Source: Isoetes taiwanensis (taxonomy: Eukaryota > Streptophyta > Lycopodiopsida > Isoetales > Isoetaceae). Taken from it: DNA of 64,000 nucleotides. Position 1 is the first letter of the stretch. Every line of letters starts with the position of its first letter. Both the position numbers and the translations under genes were made by a program. This document shows positions 9,381 through 36,313 of this stretch, piece after piece. The DNA lies in the NCBI GenBank assembly GCA_021234155.1, contig JAJEKV010000308.1, forward strand, positions 250,001 to 314,000, written 5' to 3'. The notes below the pieces were generated by a model, which made no database searches, was not told where the DNA came from, and saw nothing but the letters and a program-made list of their open reading frames with translations.

Positions 9381-9382
9381 GC

Positions 9383-12300
9383 GTGAACGGAAAAAAAGAG
9401 AGAGGGATCACCTATAAGGATTTGTATAAATCTGAGGAGAAGGTCGATGACATTGAGATGCGGAAGATGTGGGGTGAGAAAGTGAAGGGTAGAGCTTGTT
9501 ACAGATACAAGCTTCTACAAGAGAAAAGAAAAAAGGAGTTCATGGATCTATACAAGAAAATATTCAACAGAGATAAAGTTTTAAGCGGGCAGGTTCCAGA
9601 TGCTTTAGCGATGGCTTTTGTGTTACATTGCAATGGGCAGACGGTAGATTGGCTTAGCTTTTATGAGCATGCATCTTCAGCCTCAAGAACTAAAAGCATG
9701 AGTCATAGTGCTGAAGATGTCGTTACAATTGATGAAGAGGAGGAGAATGACGTACCTAAAGTCATATCGTCTCCAAGAGCACCCAGCTCCTATGTAACAT
9801 CTAACACTAAGCAGAGAGCAACTTCCAGCAACAATCCACAAGGTAATTTAGATGTATCTTTCTTGTTTGATAAGTGTATAGATAAGTTGGCAGTTTGCCA
9901 TAGTTCATAGTTTGTGTCTGTGTCGTTTGCATATGTTTAAATTTCTGTTGTTTATTCTGAGCTCGTGTTCATGTTAGTTACATTTGACATTTGAGTGGCA
10001 GTGTTAGTTTTAGTTAGTGCAGTCTTATTTTTAGTTAGTGTTAGAAGTTGTTTATATGCAGTAATAGTTGCAGTGGCAGTTAGAACTGGTGGAGTTCTAG
10101 TTTGGTGTTCAATTTGCAACTTTGGCAGTTGCAGTTCGAGTTGAAACTACTTTGAGTTACAGTTCGAATGTTAGTTGCAGGTGTAGTGTCAGCTGCAGTT
10201 CGAGTTGCAACTACTGTTGGAGTTATAGTTCGAATGTCAGTTGCAGATGTAGTTACAGTTCGAATGTTTTTGTTGGTTTGCAATTGGTGGTAGTTTCAGT
10301 TTGTTTTTAGTTTCAGTTAGCTATTAGTTGCAGTTTGAACTCAAACAATGCTCATGTGTTGTTGCAGTTTGTATATACAATTTTGTCTAATCAGATGATG
10401 CATGTTACAGCAATGTCAACAGGGTTGAAAAAATGGATTTCAGTGATAGAAGATAAGATTAGCAGATTGGCATTGGAAAGCCAGTCAATGAATGACAGGT
10501 GCAATGACTTAACTGACAAAATCAAAGGCCTTGGCAGTAAACAAGCACACTTGGAGGGTGACATTGGCAGATATGAAGCATTAATTGCAACCTTACCCAC
10601 TATAGCAAGGGTTGGCATTGAGGCTGTCATTGACCTACAGAAAAAAGAACTTGCTGAGATTACACCTGTCATAAAGGATGCAAGTAACGACCTGCTACTT
10701 TCAGAAATTTCTAGGGATGGCACATTGGATGAGCTGAAAAAGATGAAATCTTGTCTTAAAAGAATGTTACTTGTCAGTCATTTGATTTGGATCCTCCGCT
10801 GCCACATGGAGCAATAGTTATGAGTAATACGAAGGATATTCAATTGAACGAAGCGTGCCCATTTTGTCACAGATCATTGAAAACAGATGGCATGCTTCTA
10901 CCTACCATTGTTGCAGAATGCATGCATGCGTATCATCTCCCTTGTTGTCTTGTGCATTAATGCTGCGAGATCCATTGTGAGCACAAGATATCAATGACAT
11001 GGATATCTCTACTTGGTCTGAACGGACGAAAAAGAGTGCAAATGAACACAATGATAGAGTTTTGTGATGGTTGGTTGTACATTTATGATAAGTTTGAAAT
11101 GATCATACCTTATATTGAGGAATGTTTATGCATGTGGAGCAGAAAGGAATGGAGGATTTGCAATGGCTGCCTTTACTCCAACATCCATGTCAAGGAAAAC
11201 AAGCTGCTGCCAAGACGTTTGAGCGCTGCTTTGACTGTTGAAGAAGAAAACAAAAAGACGGCGTTAGTCATTACTGAAAATAATGTCAAAGAAGGTAATG
11301 TACTGCTGTATGAGTTGAGGTTATATGCATGTTTAAAATGACATGCAGGTTATGACAGTAGGTGCAGGTTATGAAATTGTTACTGCAGGTCTTGATCCGC
11401 ATGTCGCGGTTAAAGAAGTTTTAGCTGATATTAAGAGTGAAGCATGTTTTGAAGTTGAGAATGACATTTATCTTGAAGAGACAGAAGATTTGGCCACAAT
11501 GTCACTTCCACCAGGTAGCTTATAGAAAAATGGAAAGGTCAATAAGTGAATTCTTAGTCCTTACAATATTTAAAGTGTTTGCAGATAAAGAACATGTGCC
11601 GGAGAGGCCATATCATGTAGTATGAAAAGCAAAGTTGATCACAGTCCATGTAAGGAGAAAAGAGGGACTAACCAGGACTTAAGCAATCAATTTGAGAAGA
11701 AGAATGTTGAGTACCCTGTGAAAAAGAATTGTACGTTGAAGGAGCAGAGTATAGGCAGCCCGAAACAAATAAGTCAATCCTTGAGATCAGAGGAGTCATA
11801 TTCACCTGGTAACTTAGCAATTCCATCTCTTAACTTCCACTTAGTACGTGTTTTTAACATTTAAATTCTACAGGAAGTACAAGAGAGCAGGTGGCTACTA
11901 TAAAGAATAGTAAACGTGGCGGTGACATACATAGCAGTCCCTCTATGTTGCGAATCAATAAGCGGCTTAAACTGCCTATGAAGCTTTTAATTTTTGAGCT
12001 TGAAGGAGTTTTGTGCAAGCTGTTTGAGAAAGGGAAACTATTGCCCAGCAGCCTTGAAGATGGTGCAGAGGCAAAGCATCTCAATCTCACAAAGATATTG
12101 GTTTTGCGTCCAAGAGCATTGGAGTTTTTGGAATGGTGCGTGGAGCACTTCAGGGTTGCTATCTGGACAACATTGACGAGTGTGGCTGCAAATTTAATCC
12201 TGAAGCATACCTTTCCAAAGAGTCTTAGAGACAAGTTGCTATTTACTTGGTACTCAGTTGTGTGCACAAACACATCATTTAAAGTGAGCAAAAAGCCTAT

Positions 12301-12616
12301 TCTGCTGAAAGATCTCAACAAGGTCTACCACGACTCTAGATACAAGGGAATATGGGCTGAACACAACACAGTTTTGATTGATGACATGTTATACCGTGGC
12401 TATAAGAATAGTGCGGGCACAGTAGTGACCCCAAACAGTTATCAGCCATCTCGCCGTGAAGGTAATTTTCTCTTCGAGCATTTGAAACCTTTCCTTGCGG
12501 GGCTGTTGGAAGTTGAGAATCTGAAAGACTACGTGCTTGAGAAGAAACTATCCAATCTGTTGGATAAAGAATCTAAGCAAGCAATGGATATCCTGAAAAA
12601 GTTTAAGTACTCTTGA
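9383..12616 (+). pseudogene. Unit A: zinc-finger / FCP1-like HAD protein gene
   Basis: An intron-containing gene. Exon 1 (9383-9842, donor AAG|GTAATT) has ITYKDLYKSEEKVDD, EFMDLYKKIF and a WLSFYEHA end, a domain I know only from its unit B paralogue. A coiled-coil exon (about 10,411-10,770) and a zinc-finger segment follow: CPFCHR, AECMHAYHLPC, CCEIHCEH (10,855-10,984). Several short exons then lead to the last exon, 11,873-12,616 (acceptor TACAG|GAAGT). It encodes an FCP1/NIF-type HAD domain with LLIFELEGVLCK, AIWTTLTS and VLIDDMLYRGYKNS. Plant FCP1-like proteins usually have DLNG at motif I; here both acidic positions are Glu, so phosphatase activity is doubtful. Damage: a frameshift near 10,770 and a TAA at 10,958 inside the zinc finger. 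Confidence 0.75.
9910..10335 (+). repeat. Intronic degenerate repeat, AGTTGCAGTT words
   Basis: The first intron of the unit A plus-strand gene is filled with overlapping variants of AGTTGCAGTT, AGTTCGAATG and GTTAGTTGCAG. The same vocabulary, read on the sense strand, fills the intron of the unit A transposase-like gene at 16,180-16,510. Confidence 0.7.
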
Positions 12617-13160
12617 TGTACCTGATGCCAAATTTGCATTTAACATTTTGGATAATGAAGTTTGATTATGGTTGGTGATTGATCAAAGATCATGTTGTTG
12701 CCATCTTGATAATCTAAATTGATGTACTTTTTGAACTGCATTTAGAAATAATGTATCCACTTTTTGTACCAAATAGATGTGTTTGTTTGTCCATTGATAT
12801 GAGCATAATCCTAGTGTGCAATAAGCCTGAAATACTTGTTACTTATTCATAGTGTGCTACTTAATACTTGTTTCAGTATTAAGTAGCAAATAGTTGTTTC
12901 AATAGTCAATAAACATATTACTGTAGCAATGGAAAGACTCGATTTATTTGAGCAATGGGAACCAATTTTGCAACATTGCTTGATTTGGTTGCAAACTTCT
13001 TTGGGAACCAGTTCAACATTGCCTCTGCTCTGGTTTGGAAGTGCATCAGTTGTAACTAGTTTGGTTTTTATATTTCCTTTGACAGTATTAAGTAGGACTT
13101 GCAGAATAAGATGATTCACAAAGTAAATACATTAATAGATCTAGACAAAAGAAATTACAC
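12617..13160. other. 3' flank between convergent genes of unit A
   Basis: Downstream of the FCP1-like stop codon. It holds AT-rich 3' UTR-like sequence and the perfect hairpin at 12,856-12,887. No supported open frame. Confidence 0.55.
12856..12887. repeat. Perfect 13-bp hairpin
   Basis: GCTACTTAATACT and its exact reverse complement AGTATTAAGTAGC are separated by a 6-nt loop, TGTTTC. It lies about 240 bp after the FCP1-like stop, in the gap between convergent genes. A related AGTATTAAGTAGG occurs at about 13,085. It could be a tiny foldback element or an RNA 3'-end structure. Confidence 0.8.
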
Positions 13161-13167
13161 AGTTTCT

Positions 13168-13335
13168 GGACAAAAGAAATTATACAAAGTTTCTGTCATA
13201 TATTAAGGAAAAACCATCGGGTGGTTGTCTTACAGAAAAAGCAAGCTCGAAATTACACAAAGTTTCTGTCATATATTACATAGAAGGAAAAACCATCAGG
13301 TGGATGCTTTACAAAAAAAATCAAGCTCGAAGCTG
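13168..13335. repeat. ~85-bp tandem duplication
   Basis: Two copies share ACAAAGTTTCTGTCATATAT, GGAAAAACCATC and AAGCAAGCTCGAA or a close variant. The second begins near 13,252. Confidence 0.75.
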
Positions 13336-13406
13336 CCAGATACTTAAGTAAACCAAAAAGCAAGCTCTAAGCTGCTATATAAGTAAGTAAAAAGACATTA
13401 TATTGG

Positions 13407-13750
13407 CTAGTAATCATGAGGGGGCATCTGCAGCTCCACAAAAAGATAAAGTCCATCAGCTTGCATGGTCATCTGCAAAAGGCGCTCCTCATGAGGCAAA
13501 ACACGGTCTCCAGTTACTGATATTTGTTCAAGCTTTCCAAGAATCAAGGTATGGGTAGTCAACAATCTGATTCCACTGTTGAGATTGAGGCAGTGGCACC
13601 TGTGGATATCAAGAAATACCACCAGAATGTATCACAGAGGGTTGTGATGGGGTATTTTGAGATGGGCATAAAGATTCAGGATACGATTCTAGCTTGGGCT
13701 GAGGAAGCACCACTGCGTGCAATGATGTCGAAGCAACCTTTGTGAGGCAT
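13407..13750 (-). pseudogene. Unit A: small conserved protein gene
   Basis: The C-terminal frame reads DRVLPHEERLLQMTMQADG then LYLFVELQMP and aligns with the - strand protein at 28,345-27,899 (DRVNEGDERLLQMFIEADG, VLRVVLKIKF). An ARSG start-like segment (IIARSGASSAQAR) near 13,730-13,700 matches ARSGTPPLPRPK in unit B, but in a different frame, so at least one frameshift lies between. The product would be about 100 residues with a conserved E-R-L-L-Q-M helix. Function unknown. Its place in both units, between the convergent large genes, suggests it belongs to the unit. Confidence 0.6.
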
Positions 13751-14203
13751 GGGGATTTGCTGGGAATTTTTGAGTAAACAAAAGTACTTGAATTTGTATC
13801 AGAGACATTGATATGAAGGTAATAAATCATAACAAGCTGGTTCTGAAGGTAATCAGCCCTTCCAAATCAAAACAATGATAATACAAATATACATCCAATC
13901 TGATATTTCCAAACCAGAGCAGGGATATTTGTTTTATTCAAGAAAAAAGAACAGTACAATAGAAGTCCAAAATTTGACTTCAAATAACTGTTTGTTGATG
14001 ATGCAGCAGCAAACATCAATAACATAATAACAGAGTTACATCAATCTGCAAATAATATGCTTAGCAATTTCACATAGACATCATAGCTGCACACAATATA
14101 AATCAGACCCTTCGATCTGTTTGTTTCACTTAAAGCTTCAAGTATAGCAACAGGAACTGCAACACTAACTACATTCCAACTGTAAACAAGCTGAATATTT
14201 AAT

Positions 14204-17200
14204 CCTCTTCGCCTGATAGCACATCAGGGAGATTGTCTAAAATCTTTTCACTGTCAGCTTCACAAAGTTTGTAAACAACACGGTTTCCTTCGACCTATGT
14301 TTTGCTTGTGCCATATCAAGTCTTATTGCGCAAACTTGGGTTGCATAAACAATGCCTTTTGGCTCGTTAGAACATAAAGTGTAACCTGTAAGCGATCTTG
14401 GGACTTTTTTGTAGTAAGTTCCCTCTAAAACTTTTTCCCTTTATAAAACCAATTCCCATAGGCTTTAAAATCTGTCTGAACCACATATTTCTCTTTCGTA
14501 CACAATAACATCCAAAATGAAGTGTCCTCATCATTGTCCTTTGGAGCCGCGACAAAAAGTTATCTCCTTCCCTTACCAAATCACTCAACACATTTTGATC
14601 TCCAGAAAATAGAGCTCTTTCGGATCTGCAAGCTTCATTATTCATCAGCTATAGCCTTGCTTGGCTCAACAACTCTGAGCTCCCAATCATCTACATATTC
14701 CTTGTTCGGACACTTCTCCCATTGTGCATCAAGGCAATATGCACTGTAAAACAAGATAAACGCCTTTATATGCAATTCGTAGGAGATGCTAAGTTAAATG
14801 CATGCACATAATGAATGTTCCTCGTGTCCTCCACAGTCTCAGCACCCCATGCATTCTTTCTATCCACATTTATCACTTCCCAAAACGACCTTCTTACTGG
14901 TTTCTTGTTCACACTTGAAGATGGAGAACAGCTGTGAAATTCTCCCTGGCTATATTCACAATATCAGCAGCACATTCTACTTTTATAGACTGTGATCTCT
15001 TCATCATCTCCCTTAGCCACCGTTTCAACTCTGCAGCCTTCCCATCATGCTCCCCTTTGCCGTGATTGGAGCCGAACAAATTCCACATCATTTCAATGAG
15101 TGTCTCATGCGAATACCTTCCTACAAAATAGAATGGCCGGGCAGCTTTGAATTGGGATGCAGCTCCATCTGAAAATACCCAATGCTTTTTTGGATGTATG
15201 CCCTGTTCTTTCATGAATTTGTGATGCATCATAAATGCATGCTGGACGAATAGTGTGTCATGTTTTGTATCATCAGATATATAGTAATGGGTGTCCTTGA
15301 TGACGTCACCTGATGAAGGCTCCAAATAATATGTGATTTGTACAAGAATGGTGACCTGTTTGCTTGTCCAGTACGCAGATTGAACTTGATCCTGCATCTG
15401 AATTGTGAAGTTCTCTGCAAAGTCTACTACAGATACAATAACCCCAAAAGAGAGGTTGTCTAACATATCCCTAAACTGCATCGCTTGCCATTTGTGCCTA
15501 AAGCTGTGCACTGGAAGCTTTGCCAATCTGTTAATCAATGTGTGCATAAGATCTTTTGGTTTTGTTTTCCTCCACAGACGCTGGAGTATTTTTTTGGGTT
15601 TCCCCCACTTATCCTTACCTCCTTCCTCATAATCACAGTACTCCCAACTCACAAATCCTTCTTCGGACAACTCTAGAGGACACACAGGTAGCCGAGACAC
15701 AGCACACTGCTCACAATCTCCATAAATGCAATCTTTCTTGTGGAATTCTTGATTTTCTTCTTTAGGACACAATATGGATTGCCAGAGCTGAGTGGTTGAC
15801 TTATACTTCATAGTCTTGGCAGCCCATAGTTGGCCTGTAGATTGGCATACCTTACATGCACAGGTGCAACATTCTACATGCATATTTCTAAGTGAATTTA
15901 AGCCATCCAAGAGCATCTGCAGTCTCACATGATGAATGCAACAACATGAATTGAACTGTTTCAATTTCATTACATACCATGGTTTTAGTTTTTCAAATGC
16001 TCTTTGGCCAATTGTAATTTGCGGGTGCTGCTCTTTGAATTTAATGAACATCTCTGACTGCAAAACATAATCAAGAAATATGTGAGTAACATGTCAAATA
16101 ACAAGTACACATGAACATGTAACTCTACTCTAATCGCAACTATAAACGCCATTTGAAACTCACTATGACAACAGAAACACAAACTACAAACATACAACCT
16201 GCAACTAATGGTCATAACTGCAACACCAACTGTAACTGCAACAAACATAATCACAAACTGCAACCACTGACATAACTCAAACACTTGCTGAAACACTAAC
16301 TGTAGTCTAACTATTTAACATGCTCTCTGCAACACAAACTGAAACTATGTAATGGAGCTCAAACACTAACTGCAACACCAACTGCAGACTAACAACCTAA
16401 GTTGAATCTCAGCCACCAACTGTAGCAGCTCGAAATGTTTAAGTTGCATATTAAGAACTGTACTTCAAACCTTAGCTGCAACACCAACTACATCTACATA
16501 AGCTGCAACAACAACTACATCTACAAATGATGCACATATCACCAAAAAAATCAACAAAAGATAATTTGCACCTGAGTATCCTCCAGATAATGTGTAGCAT
16601 GTTCCTTCTTCACATTTCTTTCCAGTCTTCTGAACTTCACATCCTTTGCATTAGGGGAAACTCTTGTATTTGTGTCCCAAAAACTTTGAACCAGCTCAAT
16701 GACATATTTGTCAATTGAATCAAACCTCCGTGACCTTCTAAAATATACCCATCCTTCCTTATTAAACTCCACTTCTTTACGTTTTTCCTTGGCTGCTGCA
16801 ATACATCTAGGATGGACTCCCAAAACTTTTCCCAAACTTCTCTTGCTAATAGCTTGATTTAAACTCTCCTTCCCAATAGACATGGCAAGTACACTTCTTC
16901 TTGCAGCCATAGAATCTAAACTACTAGATCCTTTTATAGTCTGAATAGATTCTCGAATGTTCTCAATCAGATGGCTTTTGACTTCTTAATCCTTCAAGTG
17001 ATCAGCAGTGACATCCTTCATTTCTTTGTGCTTCAAGAAATCATTTAGCACTTCCCTTTTCTCTTCCAAATCCATTTGACAAACTTGCCTTTTGAATGAG
17101 AACACTAGATTAGACACAATCTTTTGTTTACTCACTTGATTGGCATAAGCTTTGGACTCCTGCATCAAAGCATTCTTCTCTTCTTTTTTTCTCTTTCTTT

Positions 17201-17279
17201 GTTTCCTCTTCTTTAGAGTCTTCTGCTCTCTTGTCCTCTTCCTCTTTCCCATAAAGTTTATTTGCTCCACTTCTTCCAT
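14204..17279 (-). pseudogene. Unit A: transposase-like protein gene
   Basis: Read on the - strand. The N-terminal exon (17,279-16,986) has a basic run KRKQRKRKKEEK. It continues at 16,910-16,551 with the helix-turn-helix-like SLGKVLGVHPRCIAAAK, then an intron. The core exon is 16,063-about 14,930, with Cys/His-rich stretches (CCCIHHVR, CTCACKVC, CIYGDCEQC), VVDFAENF (about 15,430), FSDGAASQFK (about 15,170) and NHGKGEHDG (about 15,060), an RNase H-fold DDE-type pattern. Small exons follow (VRRSFWEVI; LDAQWEKCPNKEYVDD), then a C-terminal exon with VAAPKDNDEDTSFW ending DNLPDVLSGEED at about 14,204. TAA at 16,986-16,988 replaces a Leu codon of unit B (HLKD-stop-EVK versus DFRDLKVK), so the copy is broken although its core is complete. 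I recognise the motif pattern but not the superfamily name. Confidence 0.75.
16180..16510 (-). repeat. Intronic degenerate repeat of unit A minus gene
   Basis: On the sense (-) strand this intron is made of variants of CAGTTGGTGTTGCAGTT, GTTGCAGTTAGTGTTT and TGTAGTTGGTG. It resembles the intron repeats of the opposite-strand gene of the same unit at 9.9-10.3 kb. Confidence 0.7.
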
Positions 17280-18352
17280 CTTGATTGCTCACAAACGCCA
17301 CCTTCGCACCTATAATAGTCCCTGCTTATAAAATTAACGAGACGTAAGAAACTATCATCGTAATACTTTAAGTCTTCAATATGCCAAAAAAAAAAAATCA
17401 GAATGCACCACATTCCTCCAAGCTAACCTGTATTTAGAAGCCATGCTAAAGCATTTACAGCATGCATAAGCTTGCATAAAATTCAGCCCTTATTCTTTCC
17501 TATAGATGCATCACTACACCTATAGCTAGCATAAAATTCTGCCATCAGTTTTCCTGTAAGAGCTTCATGCACCACCTTTTCTTTTCTTTTTTTTCAAACA
17601 AACCTGTGTTTACAAAAGTCAGGGGAAACATTGCACTAATCCTGGCCACCAAATTGATGCTATATACAAAATAACATACTAAAATTTATAATGCTTCTAG
17701 AACAAACAAGTTTATACCATTCTTGAATCAGTACAAGATATAACAGAATGATCACTAATTGTGGCTCTTGAATGCATGCCGGATATATTTTTCTGGATGA
17801 TTACAAGAAGGAAACCAAATCTACATGCAAATCAAACACAAAACAAAGAGAGCACTACAATCAATTTTAATTGCTAGAATGAGAATAATCTTGGATTAAA
17901 AGCAAACTTTGGATGGCAACATACCCAAATTTTAGTCTTCAAACGAAATTTCAAGAGGCCTTACAATCTTGAAATTCGAATTTGATCTTCTGCAAATAAT
18001 AAGAGACCCGAAAAAATTTAAGGAAACCAAAGGTACATGCAAATAAAAAACAAAGCAAAGTCATGTCTATTGAAATCAAATTACAATGAAAGAAATCTTG
18101 GATTCAAAGCAAAGCAACATACCCGAAATTTTGTCTTCGAAAGAAAGTATGCAAAAAGGCTCTACATTCTTGTAAGGCCGAATTTGATCTTCTGTCAGAC
18201 CCAAATCTGAGGAGAAAGTCCATACATTCTGCTTGATCAGTGATCAGTGATCGTGCACCGAAAATTCTCTGCCAAATTTTGAATTCTCTTGGGCGGGGTG
18301 GTGGTTGAAGCAAGACACGAAAATAGGTAAATGTCTAACTACCTTTCGAACT
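17280..18352. other. 5' flank of the unit A transposase-like gene
   Basis: No convincing gene. A short frame at 18,313-18,104 (-) has no counterpart upstream of unit B. The region should hold the 5' UTR and promoter of the - strand gene. Confidence 0.5.
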
Positions 18353-18396
18353 AATTTTTAAACTAATTAGGGGGGACAGGGGGACAACTAAAATAA
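18353..18396 (-). repeat. Conserved block, possible right end of unit A
   Basis: It carries AACTAATTAGGGGGGACAGG followed by GGGACAACTAAAAT and matches 36,514-36,556 (AACTATTCTAGGAGGGACAG, then GGGGGGACAACTACAAT), the same position relative to the unit B transposase-like gene. Outside it the two flanks differ. It may be an element terminus or a conserved promoter module. I found no inverted copy near the left ends by eye. Confidence 0.5.
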
Positions 18397-18914
18397 GACA
18401 CTAGGGTTGATGCATGATAAGGTGGCACAAAAATGTGCATTTTGAAACCACAAAATGAAGTTGAAAATTGTAGTAATAATGCCCTCAAAATTTGAAATAC
18501 GAGCCATTAATGCTTTGAAAGAAATTCCATTTTTGGATACCTCCAAAAATGGATTCTTTACGGAAAAATGTGGGAAAAAGTGGGAAGAAACGATTTGTTT
18601 GAAATTTTTTCAAAATTCCCACTTTCGTTTCGATGCAAATTCACCTCCGGAGAAGCTCTTCCATATTCATTCAATCAGGGACGGAACAGGGACGGAAGGC
18701 AAGTTCACATCTCCAAATTATGTTATGTAAAAGCAAAATGACATTCTCGGCTCACAGAAAGTATCTCGTTGCTTGTCAAGAATAACAGGAGAGAGGCTAA
18801 TTCAAGGAAGGCAGCAAGCTGTTCATGCCCTAGCCAGGTTTAGTTTTTTTCTAGATCATGAAAGGAATCAAGACTTATTATTGTAGGTCAACGATTTGTA
18901 GACCAAAGAAGTGA

Positions 18915-21900: not shown

Positions 21901-22912
21901 TCAATGGTATGCTAATCTAGCTAAATCACTGTTAAATTTCATTGATTTTGGAACATATGCTTAATTGAGTGCAATCAAGTTAGAAATTTAACCATTGAGC
22001 TCCCTAATGGTTTTGATATTTTGTGGAGTTTGTGCAGCCTCAAATAGAATTGAAGATGCAACTCCAAAGAAGACCAAGATTGCAAACAATATGTCACTTG
22101 AAAGACAAGGTATGCTATGATTTATTAGGGAAATGCATTTGAAGCTTGTATTTTCTTATGTGTTTTTCTATGCTTGCATCAAACAGGAAGTGATAGGCTA
22201 GGAAGTGTAGATGTTGAAACAGATTCTGTATCATCTCCTCCACCTCCTTTAAAGAAAATCAGGTTGTCGAGAAAGCTAATTATATTTGATTTCAATGGAG
22301 TGCTTGGTAAAATGTATGAGACAAAGGGAGGGATCCCAACTTGCATTCCTGAAGAAGGAACAGTGCCTCAGCATCTATCAAAGAGCAAGCTCGTTATTTT
22401 AAGGCCAGATGCAATAGAGTTTTTGAGCTGGTGCAGTGAACACTTTGACATTGCCATGTGGTCTGATTTGGATGTTGCAAGTTTGAAGTCAATCACCAAG
22501 AAGGTATTTCCTGCAAAATTGAAGAAGAAGTTGGTGTTTGAATGGGGTGTTGATAAGTGCATGAAGGTAGGTTTCAAGTATCGAGAAAGTCAACATAAGC
22601 TTGAAACCTCATTGCGAGAAAGTATATAAGGACAAAGAGCTTGGAGGATATTATAACACATCGAATACCTTGATGATTGATGATCACCAATATAAAGGGT
22701 ATAAGAATAGCCCTCATACTATGATCACACCAATCTCTTTCCATCCTAACGCAGGGGATAGGTCATTTCTATTGAACCAACTGAAGCCATGGTTGGAGGG
22801 CTTGAGAGACTCAAATCACATTGTAGACTATGTTCGAGATCATCCTATTACTAATTGGTTGGATGATATTTCTGATTCAATAATTGAATTGTTGACAAAA
22901 AGAATGGTTTAA
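18915..22912 (+). pseudogene. Unit B: zinc-finger / FCP1-like HAD protein gene
   Basis: Paralogue of the gene at 9383-12,616. Exon 1 shares the YTDLYKGEKEFD, EFMNLYRKVY and INWLSFQAHA segments. A coiled-coil exon (about 20,341-20,899) runs into CPFCGR and AECNHKYHLQC. An intron (20,900-20,964) separates this from CCQVNCGHAMSETW, completing a C-x2-C / C-x-H-x2-H-x2-C / CC-x3-C-x-H finger. Many short exons follow, with donors such as GAAAG|GTAATG and AAAAG|GTAATT. The last exon (22,187-22,912, acceptor CAAACAG|GAAGTG) encodes the HAD domain with KLIIFDFNGVLGK (typical plant FCP1-like motif I), AMWSDLD and LMIDDHQYKGYKNS. The frame shifts by one base near 22,600, so the C-terminal third is out of frame. 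An unannotated splice could also explain this. A nuclear role is plausible but not shown. Confidence 0.75.
19640..20260 (+). repeat. Intronic tandem repeat, TTTGTAGCCTGAGATATG words
   Basis: The first intron of the unit B plus-strand gene contains about four copies of a ~50-bp unit (TATAGTTTGTAGCCTGAGAT, then ATGCTTTGTTTCATAGTATG), preceded by looser ATTATGGTTTGTAGC variants. This vocabulary differs from unit A but resembles the unit B minus-gene intron. Confidence 0.75.
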
Positions 22913-23680
22913 AATATCATTGTCTTTTGATTCTTGTATTTGATATCTGGTATGTAATCTCTGTATTTGATTCTTGTATTTGATATCTGGTATTCTTATT
23001 TGATATCAGGTATGTAATCTCTGAAATATGACAAGGATTTAGGTTTGTGGAGGTTAAGAAAGGATTAATTAATGATGGCATGAGATAGAGGATTGGACCC
23101 GCAACAAAGAGTGATGGAAGATGATTTTGCTTTAAATTTTTTAGTTTACATTGTATTTGAAAAGATGTGAATAGAGTTTTGGTTTATAAGAAACATACTG
23201 GCTTTGGCATTGAAAAAGCATGAAATCCTTCCAAGCTATTCTCATCACAAATGGCTATTTCATTTGGATAGATACTAGCATTCATGCTTAGCATTTGCGA
23301 GTTCAGATTTTGGGATGGAGAAAATTTTGCTGGTTGCAATTGAATTCTGAAGTGGATGTCCCACTTCAAATCAGCATGAAGAAGTACATGCACTGTTCTA
23401 AATAACTTCACTTTACATCTCCTCTTTTTTAAGTCGTTTAAAATTTGTCCACTTGCTGCATGTAGATGTTTGGTCTAGTAAGAGAAAGAAAGAATAAAAT
23501 ACATGTTTTTTCTGCATGAGCATGAGACCACAAACAGAGGTGCTTTATTTTATGGAACTTATATGTACAAAACATTTAAGAAATCGTATGTTTTGGGTAT
23601 AAATAATTGCCATATACAAGACACGTATATCAGAACTTTCTCAAAACAATATGGAAGACACGCGGTATCGTAACTTTCTT
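22913..23680. other. 3' flank of the unit B plus-strand gene
   Basis: It starts with direct repeats of TTGATTCTTGTATTTGATAT (22,920-23,010). No supported gene. Unit A has under 0.8 kb between the FCP1-like gene and the small gene, whereas unit B has about 5 kb, so inserted DNA begins within or soon after this stretch. Confidence 0.5.
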
Positions 23681-23682
23681 AG

Positions 23683-23850
23683 TTATATATATGTAGCATT
23701 ATAACAGGGGTTTTTTTGTGATTTTATACGCTTTTTGGCATGGTTTTCATATGATTTCATGGGCGTATTCACGTGAACGTACTAAACGGTATTTCTAGAG
23801 TGCACCTATTTGTTAGCCGTTGATTTTAAAGAGAGGGAAAATCCTGTGGT
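23683..23850 (+). repeat. Dispersed repeat TAGCATAATAACAGGGG, copy 1
   Basis: It starts with TAGCATTATAACAGGGG and continues through GTTTTCATATGATTTCATG and TATTTCTAGAGTGCACC to GCCGTTGATTTTA. It aligns over about 140 bp with 26,287-26,425 and 46,815-46,965. The DNA after each copy is different. Here it is followed within 0.8 kb by CRINKLY4-like coding sequence. Confidence 0.8.
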
Positions 23851-24439
23851 TGTGGGGCTTTTATTGTTTGCATGTTTTTTTAGTTTAGGTTTCAAATATT
23901 AGGTTAATATTAGAAGGAATCGGGTTTCTTCCCTCATTGTTGTTAATCTCTTTGTGATCCTCTGTTTTGCGAATTGAAGTTGATCGGATTTGCATACTGT
24001 TTTTTGCATCCGAAGCAGACGTGCAGATTGATCCTTAAGACGGAGTTGGGTTGGGTTCTTTGCTTCCCAAGCTTTTCGTCTATACAAGATAGATCTCTAC
24101 ATGCTTATCAGGCTTTTCAGATATGGCAGCAGGCACGGAAATTCCTCAAGTGTTTTTATAGGAGTTCACAAACCAAAGGCGCTGAATTCGCTATGCCCTG
24201 GCACTGTTGTGGTGGGTAACGCTAATAGCTGCTCTAAGGAGAGCAAAGGTACAGATTCACCCCGGTTCAATAATGGACATCACGGCATGTCTCGTAATGG
24301 GGCTTTTACGCAGAGCCTGGTAAGAATTTATTTCGCACTCTTCTCTGCTCAAGGACTTGTTAAATAAACTTGCTCAAGCTTTCTAGGCTAGCAGAGTAAT
24401 GTAATTTAAGAGTGATCAGGAGCCTTAATCTTTTTATTT

Positions 24440-24890
24440 TTTTTTTCCCCTGCCATATTTGCTGGCCGTTACCATGTCTGTGGCATAGAACTGATCACAA
24501 ATAAATCCTTGTGCTGGGGTATGAATGATGCCCATCAGTGTGATGTTCCTGCCAATTATACCTTCTCCTCGCTAGCACTGGGAGATAATCATACCGCTGG
24601 CCTTCTGATCGATGTGACCATGAAGTCGTCTCACTGGGGAGAACACCTATGGCGGTGCAACCCCGCCCGATTGGAGTTCCTTTTTGCTCGACACTGCAGC
24701 AGACTCCTACACTTGTGGTGTCAGGAAAGATCAACAAAGTATTCTATGCTGGGGTAATTATGCTGGTGATGCTAACCATTTAGTTTGTAGTGCAGGCATA
24801 TGTCAAGGATCTTGCAAGCATGATGAATATTACTTAGCAGGTAAGTGCCCTAGAGAAACTGAGAAAATTTGCTTGGACTGCTCATCCTAG
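24440..24890 (+). pseudogene. CRINKLY4-like ectodomain fragment (RCC1-like and TNFR-like)
   Basis: The first part reads YHVCGIELITNKSLCWG, then VPANYTFSSLALGDNHTAGL, the spacing of CRINKLY4 'crinkly' repeats. In another frame after about 24,690 it continues with SYTCGVRKDQQSILCWGNY, then CSAGICQGSCKHDEYYLAGK and a CPRE..CLDC end, like the Cys-rich TNFR-like segment after the repeats in CRINKLY4-type receptors. The frame change in the middle means it is broken or contains an unseen intron. No transmembrane or kinase part is recognisable downstream. Best explained as a gene fragment carried in by a repeat. Confidence 0.6.
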
Positions 24891-24935
24891 AGAAACTGCT
24901 CATCCTAGAGAACCGAGAGAAAATTTGCTTGGACT
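24860..24935. repeat. Short tandem duplication
   Basis: AGAAACTG, CTCATCCTAGAGAA and GAGAAAATTTGCTTGGACT are each repeated side by side, just at the end of the CRINKLY4-like fragment. Confidence 0.6.
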
Positions 24936-25313
24936 TCTCGGTTGTAATTACCAACGTGGGGATTTCTCGATTCTTGCGTAATGGCCAGAATACCGGCCAA
25001 GATATGCCCCCGGCTTTGCTTTTCAGTTGAAGCCCTCCAATATGCGGTACATGTTTGTCTCATTTGATCCCCATTCATTCATTTCTCTTAGATTGATTCA
25101 TTTGTTCTATAAATGGTAGAAGTTTACGTACCTGATGGTTCCTTTTTGTACTTGCGGTGGCATGATTGAGATCAAATCATTCGATAATAAGGAAAAAATA
25201 CAATTTTCCAACTTTTTGTATCACAAATTTACTTCTAGCATCCGGATACTACTTTTGATCTTAGATGTGTGCATGTAATTTGTTTGAGTTTCCAGTTCCA
25301 GCTTGCTAGCTCT

Positions 25314-25365
25314 TGTTTGTTTGTTTGTTCTTGCTTGTTTGCTTGCTTGCTTGCTTGCTTGTAGA
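25314..25365. repeat. TTGT / TTGC microsatellite
   Basis: Tetranucleotide run of TTGT changing to TTGC repeats. Confidence 0.9.
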
Positions 25366-25924
25366 AAGGTTCTCCCTATGATACAAGCATCAGATACTAA
25401 AGAAGTTACAATCTATTAAATGTTGATTGCCTTGAAAGGCGATGCAAGAAGGCGGTGGTCATGCAATCATGAAAATATGCGAGATTTTGAAAAGTGGGAC
25501 AGGTCTGGAGGCCCTAGTACTAGCCCACAACATTGCCATGGGAGTCCATCTCCACAGGAGATTTTAGGGTTGTACTATACTAAGGCATTTGGTTGGCAAG
25601 CTGTAGATGGCAATCTCTTACGGTGTTAAATGATTATTGGCTGGCTGGTCAGACATCGGAGTTTCATCACAATGTATTCAATCCTCTTCTCTTCAAAGTC
25701 TATGCTTACCTTGCCATAGGGCTCACGGATATCGTGGTCATACGTGTGGTAGTTACGTGTGGTAGTTATGAACATTACAGGATTGAAGACAACACAAATG
25801 TTCTTTGATATGTTGCTGATTTGGCAAATTCTAAAATACTTTTTATAACTTGAGTATGTGGTGTATATGTTGTATTGTTATAAATTGCTTATTTGTTTAT
25901 TTGGTTTTTTTTTTCTTTTGTTAG

Positions 25925-26286
25925 GGCCCGAAGGGCCAAAAAAAAATTTTAGTATAACTACCAACACATAACTACCATTAACATTAATTAAACAAACCAT
26001 TGCATTTCACACTTAAAAATAAAATTCCCCCTTAAACCCCCTTTGGTTTAGGTGCATATTCACACGGGGGGCGACGTAGGGCGGCGAGAGCCCCTATACA
26101 TGTACAAAATCAACACCATATAGTACATTCTCAAATCTTATAGTATTTCGCAAACTGTGTTATACAATATACTAAAACTTGTACATGCATACCCCACAAA
26201 CGAGGATCTCTATGTACGGTCCAGATCGAGGTATAAAAGGCATATATGCTCATCCAACAGCTCTCGATGCCCGGAGTCACCCATAT
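25925..26286. mobile_element. Foldback-element arm, copy 1
   Basis: It opens with GGGCCCGAAGGGCC. The next ~170 bp (AACACATAACTACCATTAAC, TTTGGTTTAGGTGCATATTC) match the left arm of the foldback element at 27.2 kb in the same orientation. Its later part, ACAAAATCAACACCATATAGTA onward, matches 27,480-27,610 inverted. It ends where dispersed repeat copy 2 starts. Confidence 0.7.
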
Positions 26287-26425
26287 GTAGCATAATAACA
26301 GGGGGTTTTCTTTGTGTTTTTGTACGCTTTTCACTAAGGTTTTCCTATGATTTCGTGATGTATTCAAATGGATGTACTAATGCGTACATCTAGAGTGCAC
26401 CATTTCTGAGCCATTGATTTTAGCC
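26287..26425 (+). repeat. Dispersed repeat TAGCATAATAACAGGGG, copy 2
   Basis: TAGCATAATAACAGGGGG start, TTTTCCTATGATTTCGTGAT, TCTAGAGTGCACCATTTC and GCCATTGATTTTAG end. It directly abuts the foldback arm upstream. Confidence 0.8.
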
Positions 26426-26433
26426 TTTTTTTT

Positions 26434-26560
26434 TCAATGGTCAACAACCAATGGCTCACAACAAAAGCCCTTTTTTTGTGTGTGTGTGATGCATAATGTT
26501 CAACAACCAATGGCTCACAACAAAAGCCCTCTTTTTGTGTGTGTGGTGCATAATGGGCAC
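26434..26560. repeat. ~65-bp tandem duplication
   Basis: Two head-to-tail copies carry CAACAACCAATGGCTCACAA, AAAGCCCT, a (GT)n run and TGCATAATG. Confidence 0.85.
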
Positions 26561-27194
26561 ATGAAGGGCTTGAAGGGCGCATGTAGTGCAGTTTCCCCAC
26601 CAGCAACACATTTCTTATCATAACTTTTGATCCAGAGCTCTGTTTCAGATGATTTTTATTGCGTTGGAAAGCTCTCTCCGAGATCTTTTTGATAGTGTAT
26701 GATATGGATATGTTTGGTTAAGTTATATATGCTAAAACAGCAATTTTTCGGCCGGGTTTGGTAGGCTTTCACATCCTACCAGCTGATTAATACAGGATTG
26801 CGCTATTCGAATGAAGCTTGCAAAAAAATTACCATGCATTTTTAGATTTTGAGGCAGTTATTGAGCAAATTTCAAGGCTTCTAGATCCTTGTGCTAACAA
26901 GCAGAAAAGTTTCCCACTTTGGTTTCGCATCACAAGAATCCATGGAGGCCAAAGGCTGCTGTTAAATTCCAGTTGAAAAATGTTTGTGTATGGGTGTTGC
27001 AAACTCTATGACTTTCAGAATAATGGGATCAATCTGCTCTATCTTTATGGTAACTTTTACTTATGTTCTATTTGTTTTATTGTGATGAAATTCAAAAGCT
27101 ACAGGTGATGAAAGCCTCAAATAAGTTCTAGTTTTTTTTCTGGTTTGAATTCTAAAAGTTTTGTCACACTGGGAGAGGGGAAGGTGACGTCCCT

Positions 27195-27775
27195 AAGGCC
27201 CCGAAGGGGCCAAAATTTTTTTTTTGCAACACAAACCATTAACATCCAATATATAAAAATTAAATCCCCCAACACATAACAACCATTGACATTAACAACC
27301 AACACATAACTACCATTGACATTAATTAACACAACCATTGGGTCCAACACAATTAAATTAAAATCCCCCTTAAACCCCCTTTGGTTTGGGTGCATATTCA
27401 CACGGGGGTGACTCCGGGCAACGAGAGCTGTTGGATAGGCATATTCACCCCTTATTCCTTAATCTACACCGTACATAAAGTTCCTCGTTTGTGGGGGTAT
27501 GCAAGTACAAAATTTGCTATACTGTATAATAAGATTCGCAAAATACTATAAGATTTCAAGCGGAATACTATATGGTGTTGATTTCGTACGTGCAAAATAC
27601 AACTATGAGGGCTCTCGCTGTCCTACGTCACCCCCCGTGTGAATATGCACCCAAACCAAAGGGGGTTTAAGGGGGATTTTAATTTAATTGTGTTGGACCC
27701 AATGGTTGTGTTAATTAATGTCAATGGTAGTTATGTGTTGGTTGTTAATGTCAATGGTTGTTATGTGTTGGGGGA
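27195..27775. mobile_element. Foldback element with ~147-bp inverted arms
   Basis: Arms at 27,265-27,411 and 27,628-27,775 are near-identical reverse complements, so the same short peptide reads out of both strands; it is not a gene. GGCCCCGAAGGGGCC precedes the left arm. The spacer (27,412-27,627) is related, inverted, to 26,090-26,260. There is no coding capacity. It sits at the right edge of the DNA inserted into unit B. Confidence 0.85.
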
Positions 27776-27898
27776 TACAAAAAGCTCACTTCAAATGGCA
27801 TATCTTACTTCAAAGGGCATACAAAAAGCTCACTTTTGTAAGACTTTACATAGGAGCCCACTCCTTATAGGTTTAAGTTACATAGGTTTAAGATATGC

Positions 27899-28345
27899 TT
27901 ATTTACATAGGTTTAAGCATATCTTAAAAATAGCCACGACATTTCTTACATACATCCGATTTCTTATATATATCGAAACTGTAACCTTTAAATATATATC
28001 GAAACTGGAACCTTTAGATCCGAACTTTATCTTCAGAACCACACGAAGGACGATCCCATCAGCTTCTATAAACATCTGCAAAAGACGCTCATCTCCCTCA
28101 TTAACACGATCGACCCATTTCTGCACCTTCTCCGAAACTCTAGCTCCTTGATTCTGCATTCGGGTTATCTCCAAAGCTGAAAATTTCGCAACAAACATCA
28201 TTTGCATGCCCGGATGGCTGGAAGAAGAGGACTCCTCTGGCTTGGGCCTCGGCAAAGGCGGTGTACCGGATCTAGCCATGAGATCAAAGAGAAGAAAAGA
28301 AGTCACGCAAGGAAGAGCGCGCAATGAAGCGTAAGGGAAGATCAA
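27899..28345 (-). CDS. Unit B: small conserved protein gene
   Basis: The - strand frame is open for 148 residues. The likely start is ATG at 28,279 (MARSGTPPLPRPKPEE), giving about 125 residues. A Pro/Ser-rich N-terminus leads to ALEITRMQNQGARVSEKVQK and DRVNEGDERLLQMFIEADG, the part shared with unit A at 13.4 kb. The conserved part ends around VVLKIKFGS (about 28,015); the tail to 27,899 may be read-through. Function unknown. It lies upstream of no obvious partner on its own strand except the transposase-like gene about 1.9 kb away. Confidence 0.55.
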   Translation of the reverse strand: MIFPYASLRALPCVTSFLLFDLMARSGTPPLPRPKPEESSSSSHPGMQMMFVAKFSALEITRMQNQGARVSEKVQKWVDRVNEGDERLLQMFIEADGIVLRVVLKIKFGSKGSSFDIYLKVTVSIYIRNRMYVRNVVAIFKICLNLCK

Positions 28346-28379
28346 AACAGCTTTCGATTGAGGAGTGAAGATTCTTCAC

Positions 28380-29960
28380 CTCCCGGCTGGTCTTATATAA
28401 TCAGACCATTATGTCCCTGCTGCATGCAGAATTGGGGTCGAATCAAACCATTATGTATTCCCTGTTGCATGCAGAATTGGGGCTCGAAATCCAAGCCCCC
28501 AAGCCATGCAAAATAAAATTAGACATTCTAATGTATTAGAATTCCCCTAAAAATAACATTCTAATGCATTGAATGTAATATTTGTAACATTTGTGTACAT
28601 TTGTGTTGTGTACAATTGTGTACATTTGTAACATTCATCCTATCTAAAGCATGCTCAACCCCCATTAGGGGAAACATGCTATCATGATATTACTAGAAAA
28701 GTTCTAAGTAAAGTTAGCATCAAAAAGGCATTTATACAATTTATACAAGACAGTTTATACAAGACATTTATACAAGGCATTTATACAAGGCATTTATACA
28801 AGACATTTATACAAGGCATTTATACAAGACAGTTTATACAATTGCAAAACATTGCTGCAATTATTCACTGTGGTCGAGAATCTAAGAAGTAAATCCATCC
28901 CAGATGGATTAAAATGCATTTCAGGGATTGACCCTATTACTGTAGCTGCATTGACTGGATTCGACATATATCCCATAGGCTTGGTGACAATATGAAGCCC
29001 TTAGACCATTGAACCTTCAAATTATTCAATACTGCTTTTCTTTTAGGTTAAACAACCTTAACTATTTCACCATGACTACAAGTTCAACACCTTCATATCT
29101 TCTACAAGGGGAGCCAAGATATGTATCATTCCCCCTTCATGTGATATTCATGACACTTAAAGTATGCTAAAATCAATAGGTAGATAACAACTTAGTATGC
29201 TAAGATCTTAGACTTCACAGAAATGCATAGGCTATATATTCAATGACAGTTGATTGCATAACTTCAGCTAGATAATTTGGCAAGGAGATCACAAAAGTCA
29301 CTAAGCACACTCCCACAGTTTATGCAAATTCATTAACTCCTATAGGATTAATTAAAAAGGCATTGATGTTTATGGAAAGGGGGTGTCTTTTTCCCATCTT
29401 TCCATTTTTTGTAAGAAGATCACAAAGGTCACTAAGCAAATTCAACCATACACACCCACTAAGGGTCTATAGTTAAATTGTATTGATTGTCTGATTGTTT
29501 TAAATTGTATTAAATTGTATTGATTGTTTTAACAAAGGTTAAGTCGAATATGGATCAATTAAGAAAATCTTTAAAAGGAATGGATCTTCATGGGAAAGGG
29601 CTTTCTTCTTCCCCTTTCCCATGAAGACCCAATCCAACCCAAATAAAAATGCAAATGTTTATATAACAATGGTTTTTTTTTCCATTCATGATTGTGGGAT
29701 ATATAAACCCTGGACTGTTCATTTGGTTTAGGGCTCATTTGTTACAAGGCCGAAACCTGCAATACAACCAGGTCAGATGCGTGCCAATTTTGTTCAGGTG
29801 GGGTCAATGAATCAAGAATACTTGTTAGGTTCTGCTACATAAACAACTCTGATGGTTTTATGCCTAAGATACTTGGAACACAGCAACAAGGCAATAGTTT
29901 TGGGCCTGGGTACATGGAACACATCAGTAAGGAAACTTCAGCAATGGGACACAATTACAG
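28380..29960. other. Non-coding stretch in unit B
   Basis: No supported gene. It contains short repeats of ACATTTGTGTACA (28,590-28,640), TTATACAAG repeats (28,727-28,835) and AT-rich runs. The last part leads into the 3' UTR of the transposase-like gene: CAGTACAATCTAAGTCCAAA at about 30,060 matches unit A at about 13,955. Confidence 0.55.
28727..28835. repeat. TTATACAAGGCAT tandem repeat
   Basis: About seven copies of a 14-17-bp unit GACATTTATACAAG / GGCATTTATACAAG. Confidence 0.9.
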
Positions 29961-30226
29961 ATACACAAATACACAATTCTTATATTTCTAAAATAGAGCA
30001 GGGATATAAGTCTGATATTCACATATGAATCATATCTGATATTCAAGATGCAACGAACAGTACAATCTAAGTCCAAAATTTGACTTCAAATATGTGTTTT
30101 CTTGATTATGAAAAATCAAACATGAACAACAAAAAAAAGAGTTACATCAATCTATTTTCTGGCGTTGCAGACCCTTCAATCTGCTTGTCTTATAGCTTCA
30201 AGTATACTACTCCTTATCTTATCAAC

Positions 30227-33183
30227 TCATTCTTCATCACTTAGCACATCAGGCATATTATCTCTGATTTTCTTTGCATCATTCTCATCAAGTATGAATA
30301 TCTCGGAACTCCCTTTGACATGATGCTTAGCTCGTACCATGGAAACTTCGAATATAATGGACTTGTGTTGCAAACACTCGGCTTTTTCTTCATTCCTACA
30401 AAGTTCGTATGATGATCGGGTTCTTTGAAGCTTTCTATAATATAGGCCTTCTAGGACACTTTCACCTTTTAAAAACCATACACCATTCTTTTCAAAATCT
30501 GACTCAATAGAATGCATCTCTCTTGTGCATTTCACCATCCAAAAATCAGATCCTTCTTCATTATCTTTGGGTGCAACAACTCGCAAAGTTATCACCCACT
30601 TTAAGCAAGACTAGCTAAGACATCCGACTTAGTAGAGAATAGAGCTCTTTGAGACTTCCGGCTCTCCACCATATCAGTTTTGAATTGGTAGGCTCTACTA
30701 CCACTAACTCTTATTCATCAACGTATGCCTTGTTCTCACATCTATCCCAATGTCCATCCAAGCAAAGAACTACAAAAGCATGATAATTTTTGAAGTATGC
30801 AACATTGTGTTGAATTTGAAGATTGAAGGCATGAACACAATGAATGTTTCTCAGATCCTTTATTGTGTTTGCGCCCCACGCCTTAGACCTGTCAACATCC
30901 TCAGAACTTCCCAAAAATATCTTCTTACATTATCTTGTTGTGAGTAAGTGGAAGAAATTCCATGGGAAAATTTTTTGCAATTTGCCTCCACAACGTCATG
31001 TGCATTTTCAAGCTTTATCTCAGGAAACAAGAGTTGCATCATTCTAATCCACCTCTTGATTCTGCAGCCCTTGCCATCGTGCTTTCGCGCCTTTACCGGT
31101 GGTTTGAACCAAAATAACTCCACATCATCGTACTGTGTTTCAACCGAAAATGGGAGAACAAAATACATTGGACGAGCTGCCTTAAATTGTGATGCAGCTC
31201 CATCGGACCAGACCCAATGCCTTTTTGGGTTTTAGCCCTTTGGCCTCCATGTACCGAAATGCATCTTAAAAGGGTAGATTTTCCAAATCTCATTTAAATT
31301 GCTTGTCTTGCCATTTGTACCTAAAGTTATGCAAAGAAAACCTCTTTAATCTATCACGTAACTTCTCCACAAATTCTCTAGAAGTGGTCTTTTTGTATTG
31401 ATGCTTCAGAATCTTCCTTGGTTTCCCATTCTTGCCCAATCCTGCACCCTCATAGTCCAAATACTCCCAATTCAGCTCTACATCACTCAATTCAAGAGGA
31501 CATATATGCAACTTGGAGATGCCACAATTCTGACAAGTACCATAAAGGCAGTCCTTCCTATGGAACTCATCATCAACTTCTTTTGGACAAACAATGCACC
31601 TCCATAACTCATGTGTTGAAGAGAATATTAACGCGTGAGCATTACAAGTGCACGTATGGTGAGGTTCACATACACTACAAGTACATTTACAAGGTTCAGA
31701 ATGCTTCCTTCTCATTGTTTTGAATGCATCAAGCAGCACTCCAAGCCTAACATGATGAATACAACAGCATGTATTATAGTCTTTTAGCTTCACCACAAAC
31801 CATGGTTTTAACTTTTGAAAAGATCTTGCTCCTACCTTAGCTTCAGGGTATTCTTCTTTGAACCGTTCATACAATTGCATCTGTAGGAATATATGTGTTA
31901 GCATGCAAAATAACTCTCAAAGTATAGCACAAAAGAGGAATACAAACCATAACTACTCTTGTATACCACTTACTACTACAAACCATAATCAGCATCAGAT
32001 ACCACTTACTACAGTCTTCCACTTACTACTACCACTGTAGTTCCAAGAGTGCACTCCAACTATGTTTAAAGCACACACCATTATGGCTGCACCCGAACTA
32101 TGTTGAAACACTCACACCATTATATAATTGCACTCAAACTAGTTTGAGATCCACTATATCTCCAAGAATACACTCGGTTTCAAAACAAACCACTTATAGT
32201 TGGAAAACAACCATTGAAGATCAAGGGCACAAATGAAATTATAGTTAAAGACAAGCCACTATGGCTAGACCGGAAACCATTGTAGCTCAATAATTGATGC
32301 AGCAGAACTATAAATAGATATACTTGATATAAACTTTTAATCCAACCACTATAGCAAACTGTTATCGAAAACCTCAACTATAAAAATCTCAAAGGAAGAG
32401 ATAAGAAGAGATACCAACCTGAGATTGTTCCATGTGTCGCATGCTCCTCTCTAATATTTCTTTCTAGTCTTCTAAATTTTACATCCTTAGTATTTGGAGA
32501 AACTCTAGTGTTTGAGGTCCAAAATGTTTGTACAAGTGTAATAATTGAATCTGAGATAGAGTCACACCTTTTAGATCTTTTATAATACACCCACTTTCCT
32601 CCATTGCAATCAATTTCTTCCCCTGTTTTTTTCTTAGCAAATTTGAAATATTTCTTGGATGAACATCAAGTAGCTTTCCAATTTTTCTGTTACTCAAATT
32701 CTTATTTTCTCCACCAACTGCCATAGCCAAACAACTCTTTTTGGCAGCCAAACAATCCAAATTTGTAGACTGTTTCACGGTCTTAATAGACTCCCTGATG
32801 TTACTTATCATTTGGTTCTTTACTTTTAAGTCCCTGAAATCATCTCCCACAATTCCATCCAATGCCTTATGCTGAACAAAGTAATTTAAAATCCTTTTTT
32901 TCATTTGCACACTCATATGCTTAGACTGCTTCAAGAATGATTCCACCAGATTCACACCCACTCTCCTCTGCGTGGCTATGCTTCTTTCTACTCCAAAACA
33001 TGCATTACACTGAGAAACCAATGCATCTTCATTTTCTTTTTTTCTCTGGCGTTGGCGTCTTTTCCTCTCGGTTTCCTCTTCTCTTGTTCTTTTCTTCCTC
33101 CTTCCTGAAATTTTTGCCTTCTGTGCTGCTAGTCCAGACCCTGAATCCGATTCCATTAGTTCAATCCCTGATTCCGATTCCAT
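30227..33183 (-). pseudogene. Unit B: transposase-like protein gene, core deleted
   Basis: Paralogue of 17,279-14,204. The N-terminal exon (33,183-32,479) is open and has the basic run RRKKRTREEETERKRRQRQR, IRESIKTVKQSTNLDCLAAK and the HTH-like KIGKLLDVHPRNISNLLRKK. After a frame change and an intron, the exon at 31,904-31,290 carries the Cys/His stretches (CCCIHHVR, CKCTCSVC, CLYGTCQNC). Near 31,280 about 75-80 residues present in unit A are missing, including VVDFAENF, so the first catalytic Asp is gone. SDGAASQFKAARP (about 31,205) and RKHDGKGCRIKRW follow. The C-terminal exon, 30,595-30,227, has VVAPKDNEEGSDFW and DNMPDVLSDEE. It cannot encode an active enzyme. Confidence 0.75.
31900..32380 (-). 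repeat. Intronic degenerate repeat of unit B minus gene
   Basis: On the sense strand this intron is rich in TATGGTTTGTAGTAGTAAGT, CATAGTTGGAGTGCA and ATAGTGG words. It resembles the TATAGTTTGTAG vocabulary of the unit B plus-gene intron rather than that of unit A. Confidence 0.6.
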
Positions 33184-36300: not shown

Positions 36301-36313
36301 CACCCTCTTCGCG

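Follow-up and report, generated by a model that had tools for sequence, protein, structure and literature searches.

Our analysis of a 64,000-nucleotide stretch of the Isoetes taiwanensis genome (contig JAJEKV010000308.1, positions 250,001 to 314,000, hereafter the window; C7 positions 250001-314000 in our genome searches) shows that it contains two elements, A and B, which are diverged relatives in a large family of DNA transposons with terminal inverted repeats (TIRs) and a 4-bp target-site duplication (TSD). The elements carry a transposase gene that faces an accessory gene in convergent orientation. The accessory gene encodes an N-terminal domain and a coiled coil, followed by a RING-like finger whose coding sequence is interrupted by an intron, and it has an exon with a NIF/FCP1-like domain. 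Judged by sequence comparison, the convergent genes are found together again in diverged subfamilies, and purifying selection acts on the transposase as well as on the accessory gene. We therefore propose a family of TIR transposons with a convergent transposase and accessory gene, in which the accessory gene functions for the element, and we put the probability of this reading at about 0.9.

Nested insertion of two related elements

A preliminary description of the window had recognised two neighbouring units alike in gene content, order and orientation, and had considered either a mobile element carrying a transposase and a multi-exon host-like gene or a tandem segmental duplication of such an element. 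The likeness of the units was borne out: A and B are collinear, mainly at the protein level, with identities of 37–40% for the NIF exon (E 5e-41), 44–47% for the transposase core (best E 3e-66), 32% for the N-terminal exon (E 9e-21) and 31–63% for the region of the helix-turn-helix (HTH) exon. The tandem duplication has to be abandoned. The arrangement is a nested insertion, because B sits in the right TIR of A with its own TSD, and the TSD of A flanks the whole.

Element A is ~10.1 kb long without B and comprises 8327–18403 plus 36585–36600. Its left TIR (GGGTTAAAGCATG..., 8327–8350, plus strand), recognised from a comparison of copy flanks and from the TIR itself, is preceded by the left copy of the TSD AGGT (8323–8326). 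In five of eight flanks the left homology of A-related copies starts at 8327/8328, and in five of eight the right homology ends at 18403; the others stop further inside. The right ends of A copies run on into the TIR GGGTTAAAGCATGGTATAGTG, which in the window is interrupted by B at 18403. Element B (18404–36580, 18.2 kb) is flanked by the TSD ACTA, of which the first copy (18400–18403) lies inside the right TIR of A. Its left TIR (GGGTTGATGCATGATAAGG..., 18404–18426, plus strand) is identical to the end with which the B copy L102 begins, and its right TIR lies at 36559–36580 (minus strand). Beyond 36580 follow the second ACTA (36581–36584), the remainder of the right TIR of A (36585–36600, minus strand) and the right copy of AGGT (36601–36604). 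An exact inverted k-mer search for TIRs in four copies found none, one of them being swamped by simple repeats, and the ends were found instead by copy comparison and from the TIR motif.

Both copies in the window are decayed. In A the transposase core is open, the C-terminal part is broken and the RING exons are disturbed, and in B ~70 residues of the core are gone and the NIF domain is spread over two frames. Neither copy looks autonomous.

Ends and target sites across the genome

The genome search covered 1,658,258,908 bases in 1110 contigs. With up to 2 mismatches allowed, the A-type TIR gave 179 matches (93 forward and 86 reverse) and its reversed control none. Among the 100 of these 179 matches that were listed, there were 22 facing pairs within 30 kb, with lengths of 10.1–28.9 kb. 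Twenty of the 22 pairs entered a TSD test; of the remaining two, the one on C1030 had already been read by eye and one was untaken. An identical 4-bp flank was found in 18 of the 20 pairs and an identical 5-bp flank in none of them, and permuted flanks gave an average of 0.9.

Reading by eye revealed a TSD in five of six copies outside this set: AGGT in A, ACTA in B, TCCC on C1030, AAAG on C974 at 3.67 Mb, and TTTT at C1033:1.68 Mb, a copy of a subfamily with different TIRs. The sixth, at C1033:5.70 Mb, showed no TSD when its flanks were read in this way. The TSD sequences vary, and hence there is no strict TTAA-like target. The B-type TIR, searched with up to 3 mismatches, had 79 matches against 1 for the control, and a separate right-end variant is present. 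Hence, the two hallmarks of class II TIR transposons, terminal inverted repeats and a TSD of fixed length, are both found in this family. Together with the dispersed copies, they establish what the preliminary description had suspected, namely a mobile element that carries a multi-exon host-like gene besides its transposase.

Recurrence and joint inheritance of the two genes

The NIF exon of A has at least 151 matches in the genome, and the exon for its N-terminal domain at least 152. An association test used 146 NIF and 105 transposase matches, among the matches listed, both biased toward the relatives of A. Within this sample, 47 of the 146 NIF matches had a transposase within 60 kb, in convergent orientation in 41 of the 47 cases, and 32 of the 105 transposases had a convergent NIF within 20 kb, where 0.37 pairs are expected by chance. 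The preliminary description had suggested a genome-wide search for the two genes side by side, and this search turned out in its favour: transposase and FCP1-like gene co-occur convergently at dispersed loci with sharp shared ends and, in the 18 of 20 pairs mentioned above, the 4-bp TSD.

The pair is also found far from A. Eleven transposase hits had at most 57% identity to A and a core without stop codon. Eight of these (48–57%) were fetched on the 3' side, and six of the eight have a convergent NIF, two of them as weak matches (L027, E 1e-6; L029, E 4e-10). L022, one of the three remaining hits, came from an earlier fetch and likewise contains a convergent NIF; the other two were not fetched. 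In the reverse direction, convergent transposase pieces were present at three of five NIF loci taken from the PF03031 search. Both genes, collinear with those of A, were also present in each of three TIR-delimited elements for which no transposase was listed, within the 10 kb that was fetched of each.

The two genes appear to have travelled together for a long time. Splice sites are common across the copies of the accessory gene as well as across those of the transposase. At 14 loci, transposase and NIF distances were strongly correlated (Mantel r 0.775 with one reference and 0.796 with another; 1 and 0 of 2000 permutations, respectively, gave values as high). The ratio of nonsynonymous to synonymous substitutions (dN/dS) of the NIF domain was 0.11–0.16 at a dS of 0.91–1.01 in the 15 pairs, out of 66, that link two groups of A's relatives, and that of the transposase core was 0.07–0.10 at a dS of 0.27–1.19 in the 6 unsaturated of 15 pairs. 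Purifying selection on an accessory gene that has followed its transposase over such deep divergence points to a role in transposition or in escape from silencing. The pattern would also mean that this family has long carried a host-like gene with RING-like and phosphatase-like parts beside its transposase, preserved by selection.

The transposase gene

In A, the transposase gene lies on the minus strand and consists of exon 1 (16551–17288), with a basic region and an HTH-like part, exon 2 with the putative catalytic core (14912–16093; DFAEN / SDGAASQFK / HGKGEHDG; acceptor TGCAG), and a C-terminal region in several broken frames (14202–14911) that is open and contiguous in locus L017. The corresponding parts of B, also on the minus strand, are the HTH-like exon 1 (32479–33192), on which the match to HTH_38 is below threshold, the exon 2 core (30863–31916), in which ~70 amino acids around the first conserved Asp are unmatched between 31231 and 31293, and the C-terminal domain (30227–30610). 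In the clearest copy, L017, the exon with the basic and HTH-like parts has a frame of up to 246 codons, and a second exon lies within an open frame of 674 codons. A, B and L017 agree in their splice sites (CAG/GT donor, CAG acceptor).

The motifs VVDFAEN, VFSDGAASQFK and HGKGEHDG are well conserved across the subfamilies, with few departures, in single copies. Their order would match that of an RNase H-like DDD/DDE enzyme, in which the third conserved acidic motif, HGKGEHDG, holds more than one candidate catalytic residue. No viral or prokaryotic relatives of the transposase turned up when viral_contigs and genome_contigs were each scanned once with alignment A3, and a PHROGs search with four proteins gave a best E of 0.026.

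The accessory gene

The accessory gene of A is on the plus strand. It comprises the exon for the N-terminal domain (9383–9842, ends approximate, with a possible GT donor after it), frame-disturbed exons for the coiled coil and the RING-like finger (10311–11341), and the NIF/FCP1-like exon (11858–12616). The intron within the RING finger is not evident in A, where the frame is disturbed. In B, the N-terminal, coil/RING-like and NIF exons occupy 18915–22912 (plus strand); the NIF exon runs from 22129 to 22629 and then continues in another frame to 22912. The NIF assignment is above the PF03031 cut-off of 21.8 bits in A (39.5 bits) and in L019 (39.6 bits), and the two frame pieces of B are singly below it (16.8 and 14.3 bits). 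A profile of the accessory C-terminal part found UBLCP1 (3shq, E 2.9e-5) as its sole match in the PDB at E <= 0.01. Of the zinc-finger/FCP1-like gene in the preliminary description, the FCP1-like half is thereby upheld. Its finger can be called RING-like only, from a Cys/His spacing judged by eye, since the matches to RING profiles stay below their cut-offs.

The C-terminal domain resembles the SCP, FCP1 and UBLCP1 phosphatases of the RNA polymerase II carboxy-terminal domain in belonging to PF03031. It differs from them in motif I, where a DxNGVL-like sequence or ELxGVL replaces DxDxT. At 14 loci, the canonical DxDxT is absent from all 12 readable element NIFs: ten have DxN and two, A (ELEGVL) and C1096, have ELE/ELD. 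The motif of B reads DFNGVL, and that of A's relatives in the dN/dS set is ELD. By comparison, DLDxT or DMDxT is found in 6 of 10 other fetched NIF genes (L034–L036, L041–L043), and L037–L040 have DxNG. Replacement of the second Asp by Asn, or of the first by Glu, abolishes or cripples known FCP1/SCP enzymes. Because the canonical motif is missing, the NIF domain of the element probably has little or no phosphatase activity and has been kept for binding. Some plant HAD proteins carry a DLNG-type motif, and such proteins may be the source of the accessory NIF gene.

Annotations of this genome deserve caution, as some 'FCP1-like phosphatase' gene models in Isoetes taiwanensis are likely to be transposon genes. 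Among the best 151 PF03031 matches in the genome, ~100 are dispersed NIF exons of ~61–85 bits. Three of those that were read are canonical (L034–L036) and the rest are of DxNG type, some adjoining a transposase; many of these exons may be genes of further subfamilies, annotated as phosphatases. Clusters of NIF matches with near-equal scores on opposite strands, at C1060:3.38 Mb and C1084:1.88 Mb, suggest an assembly duplicate (haplotig) or a segmental duplication.

Possible function and alternative explanations

From the TIRs, TSDs and motifs we expect a Sola-like cut-and-paste mode of transposition, carried out by the transposase. The accessory protein would be a helper in the life cycle of the element rather than cargo, a role supported by the co-inheritance of the two genes and by selection. 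Its NIF domain may bind a phosphorylated partner, such as the tail of RNA polymerase II, rather than remove the phosphate; this binding role is a tentative proposal that could well prove wrong. The coil/RING part may recruit ubiquitination, and both parts together might keep the element transcribed or regulate transposition. A more elaborate version, in which a BRE1-like coil and RING fused to an impaired FCP1-like domain would dock on transcribing RNA polymerase II, ubiquitinate chromatin or silencing factors and so keep the element expressed, strikes us as rather unlikely. If true, it would add a further, independent type of anti-silencing or transcription-coupling factor encoded by plant transposons. 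A role as pseudophosphatase or E3-like protein is directly testable, because a single genome offers many members of the family, sharply defined ends, and copies of either gene with an open frame.

Several observations weigh against a functional gene pair in a transposon family. No NIF was found at two of the eight transposase loci fetched on the 3' side (L026 and L030). Two of the five NIF loci, L100 (C179) and L101 (C961), lacked a transposase match in the ~9 kb on their convergent side; these NIF genes, of which that of L100 reads DMNGVL (via L037), may be host genes related to that of the transposon or may belong to decayed elements. Among the matches listed, 14 of 20 TIR pairs showed a NIF and only 3 of 20 a transposase, counts that are misleading because all three of the fetched elements held both genes. 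L029 is an outlier, with a transposase near that of L021 and a distant NIF. The dN/dS of the NIF domain was higher in closer pairs (0.28–0.37 at a dS of 0.25–0.28) and ranged from 0.13 to 0.81 in very close ones (dS < 0.06), and many other pairs were saturated; moreover, the sequences were picked for absence of stop codons, and membership of an element is not shown for each. The transposase had no Pfam or PDB match (best E in the PDB search 0.17), and a structure model from window-only sequences reached a pLDDT of 34 and was not used. Matches to RING profiles were all below threshold (at best <= 21.7 bits against cut-offs of 27–31), as were those to BRE1 (E 9e-6 and 3e-5), which coiled-coil composition alone may produce.

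Some of these points would also fit a Pack-type passenger, that is, an FCP1-like gene captured from the host that has no role for the element. Some loci hold one of the two genes alone, L029 resembles a swap, and giant transposons elsewhere carry non-transposase genes and are compared to Pack-MULEs (PMC12477816). Yet the pair recurs with transposases that are 48–57% identical to the core of A, and lower, and a passenger is opposed as well by the correlated gene distances, the common splice sites and the purifying selection on the NIF domain at a dS of ~1, so that we regard it as very unlikely. An active phosphatase acting on the carboxy-terminal domain of RNA polymerase II or on the transposase appears clearly unlikely. 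It would agree with the PF03031 score above the cut-off, with the first Asp of motif I, retained at 10 of the 12 readable loci, and with the later IDD-type motif, retained in most NIF sequences, but the second Asp is Asn at those ten loci and the first is Glu in the subfamily of A. Duplication of a host locus, in tandem or as a segment, with an incidental transposase-like gene was suggested by two adjacent units of like gene order. It has next to no probability and was rejected, given the nested TSDs, with B in the TIR of A within its own 4-bp TSD and A's TSD around the whole, and the many dispersed copies with TSDs of their own across the genome.

Relation to known transposons

The TSD and size of the elements fit Sola, as their motifs may do, a likeness drawn from published descriptions and not from sequence comparison. 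Sola elements have a DDD transposase, 4-bp TSDs and variable TIRs, are mostly 2–9 kb and in some cases >15 kb long, and are known in Physcomitrella (PMC10741241); among ferns, SOLA elements have been reported from Azolla and Salvinia (PMC6786969). The 4-bp TSD is present in our family as well. In contrast to the Isoetes elements with their RING-like/NIF gene, the accessible portions of these two accounts mention no RING/NIF gene. A parallel is Sola1-1_Ec32 of Ectocarpus, described as a giant Sola-1 element of 21.5 kb (PMC12477816). As in the Isoetes elements, its accessory gene and its transposase are on opposite strands; that accessory gene differs in having ParB-like and DNA methyltransferase domains instead of RING/NIF. 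Sola2 elements, which have 4-bp TSDs, can carry Fanzor1 (PMC3627910); these chimeras share a second protein gene and the TSD length with our family but differ in that gene being Fanzor1, and the accessible text mentions no phosphatase-like or RING domain.

Open-access papers yielded no described transposon that carries a NIF/FCP1 gene or a RING-phosphatase gene, Repbase and most subscription papers being outside the scope of this search. Within that scope, the view of the preliminary description that the gene combination is undescribed still stands.

Other features of the elements

Similarity of A and B outside the coding sequence, noted in the preliminary description, was found again as a block between the convergent genes (13935–14047 in A, 30040–30153 in B; 82.6% identity). 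It contains a 20-mer (13965–13984 and 30071–30090) with 79 exact copies in the genome and none of its reversed control. A separate small minus-strand gene had also been described. The frame at 30227–30610 proved to be the C-terminus of the transposase, contiguous with the core in L017, and a distinct third gene does exist in B at 27899–28270 (minus strand), with a remnant in A at 13410–13631 (minus strand). Its product of ~90–120 amino acids has no Pfam match. In B, L017, L019 and L099 the gene lies between the other two and shares its strand with the transposase; it is matched partially in A, L027 and L098. At E <= 0.01 it was matched in 7 of 20 element sequences; the 13 without a match are 9–10 kb pieces, not whole elements.

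Near its right end, A has a subterminal direct repeat (17808–17992 and 18020–18194, 72% identical) that is also present in other copies; these repeats are possible binding sites of the transposase. The 18.2-kb length of B is probably due to foreign insertions. Other B-type TIR pairs span 4.9–35.2 kb, and 8 of 17 span 11.1–13.3 kb (among the matches listed). A putative foreign region in B, at approximately 23000–27800, contains inverted and direct repeats and an RCC1-like fragment. The long inverted repeats (25955–27776, with a palindrome at 27264–27776 and partners at 25955–26282) are probably a separate mobile repeat, since similar repeats are placed elsewhere in the B copy L102 (2991–5505). 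The RCC1-repeat fragment (24416–24757; PF13540, 25.7 bits against a cut-off of 22), presumably akin to the ectodomain of a CRINKLY4-type receptor kinase, is possibly captured host DNA.

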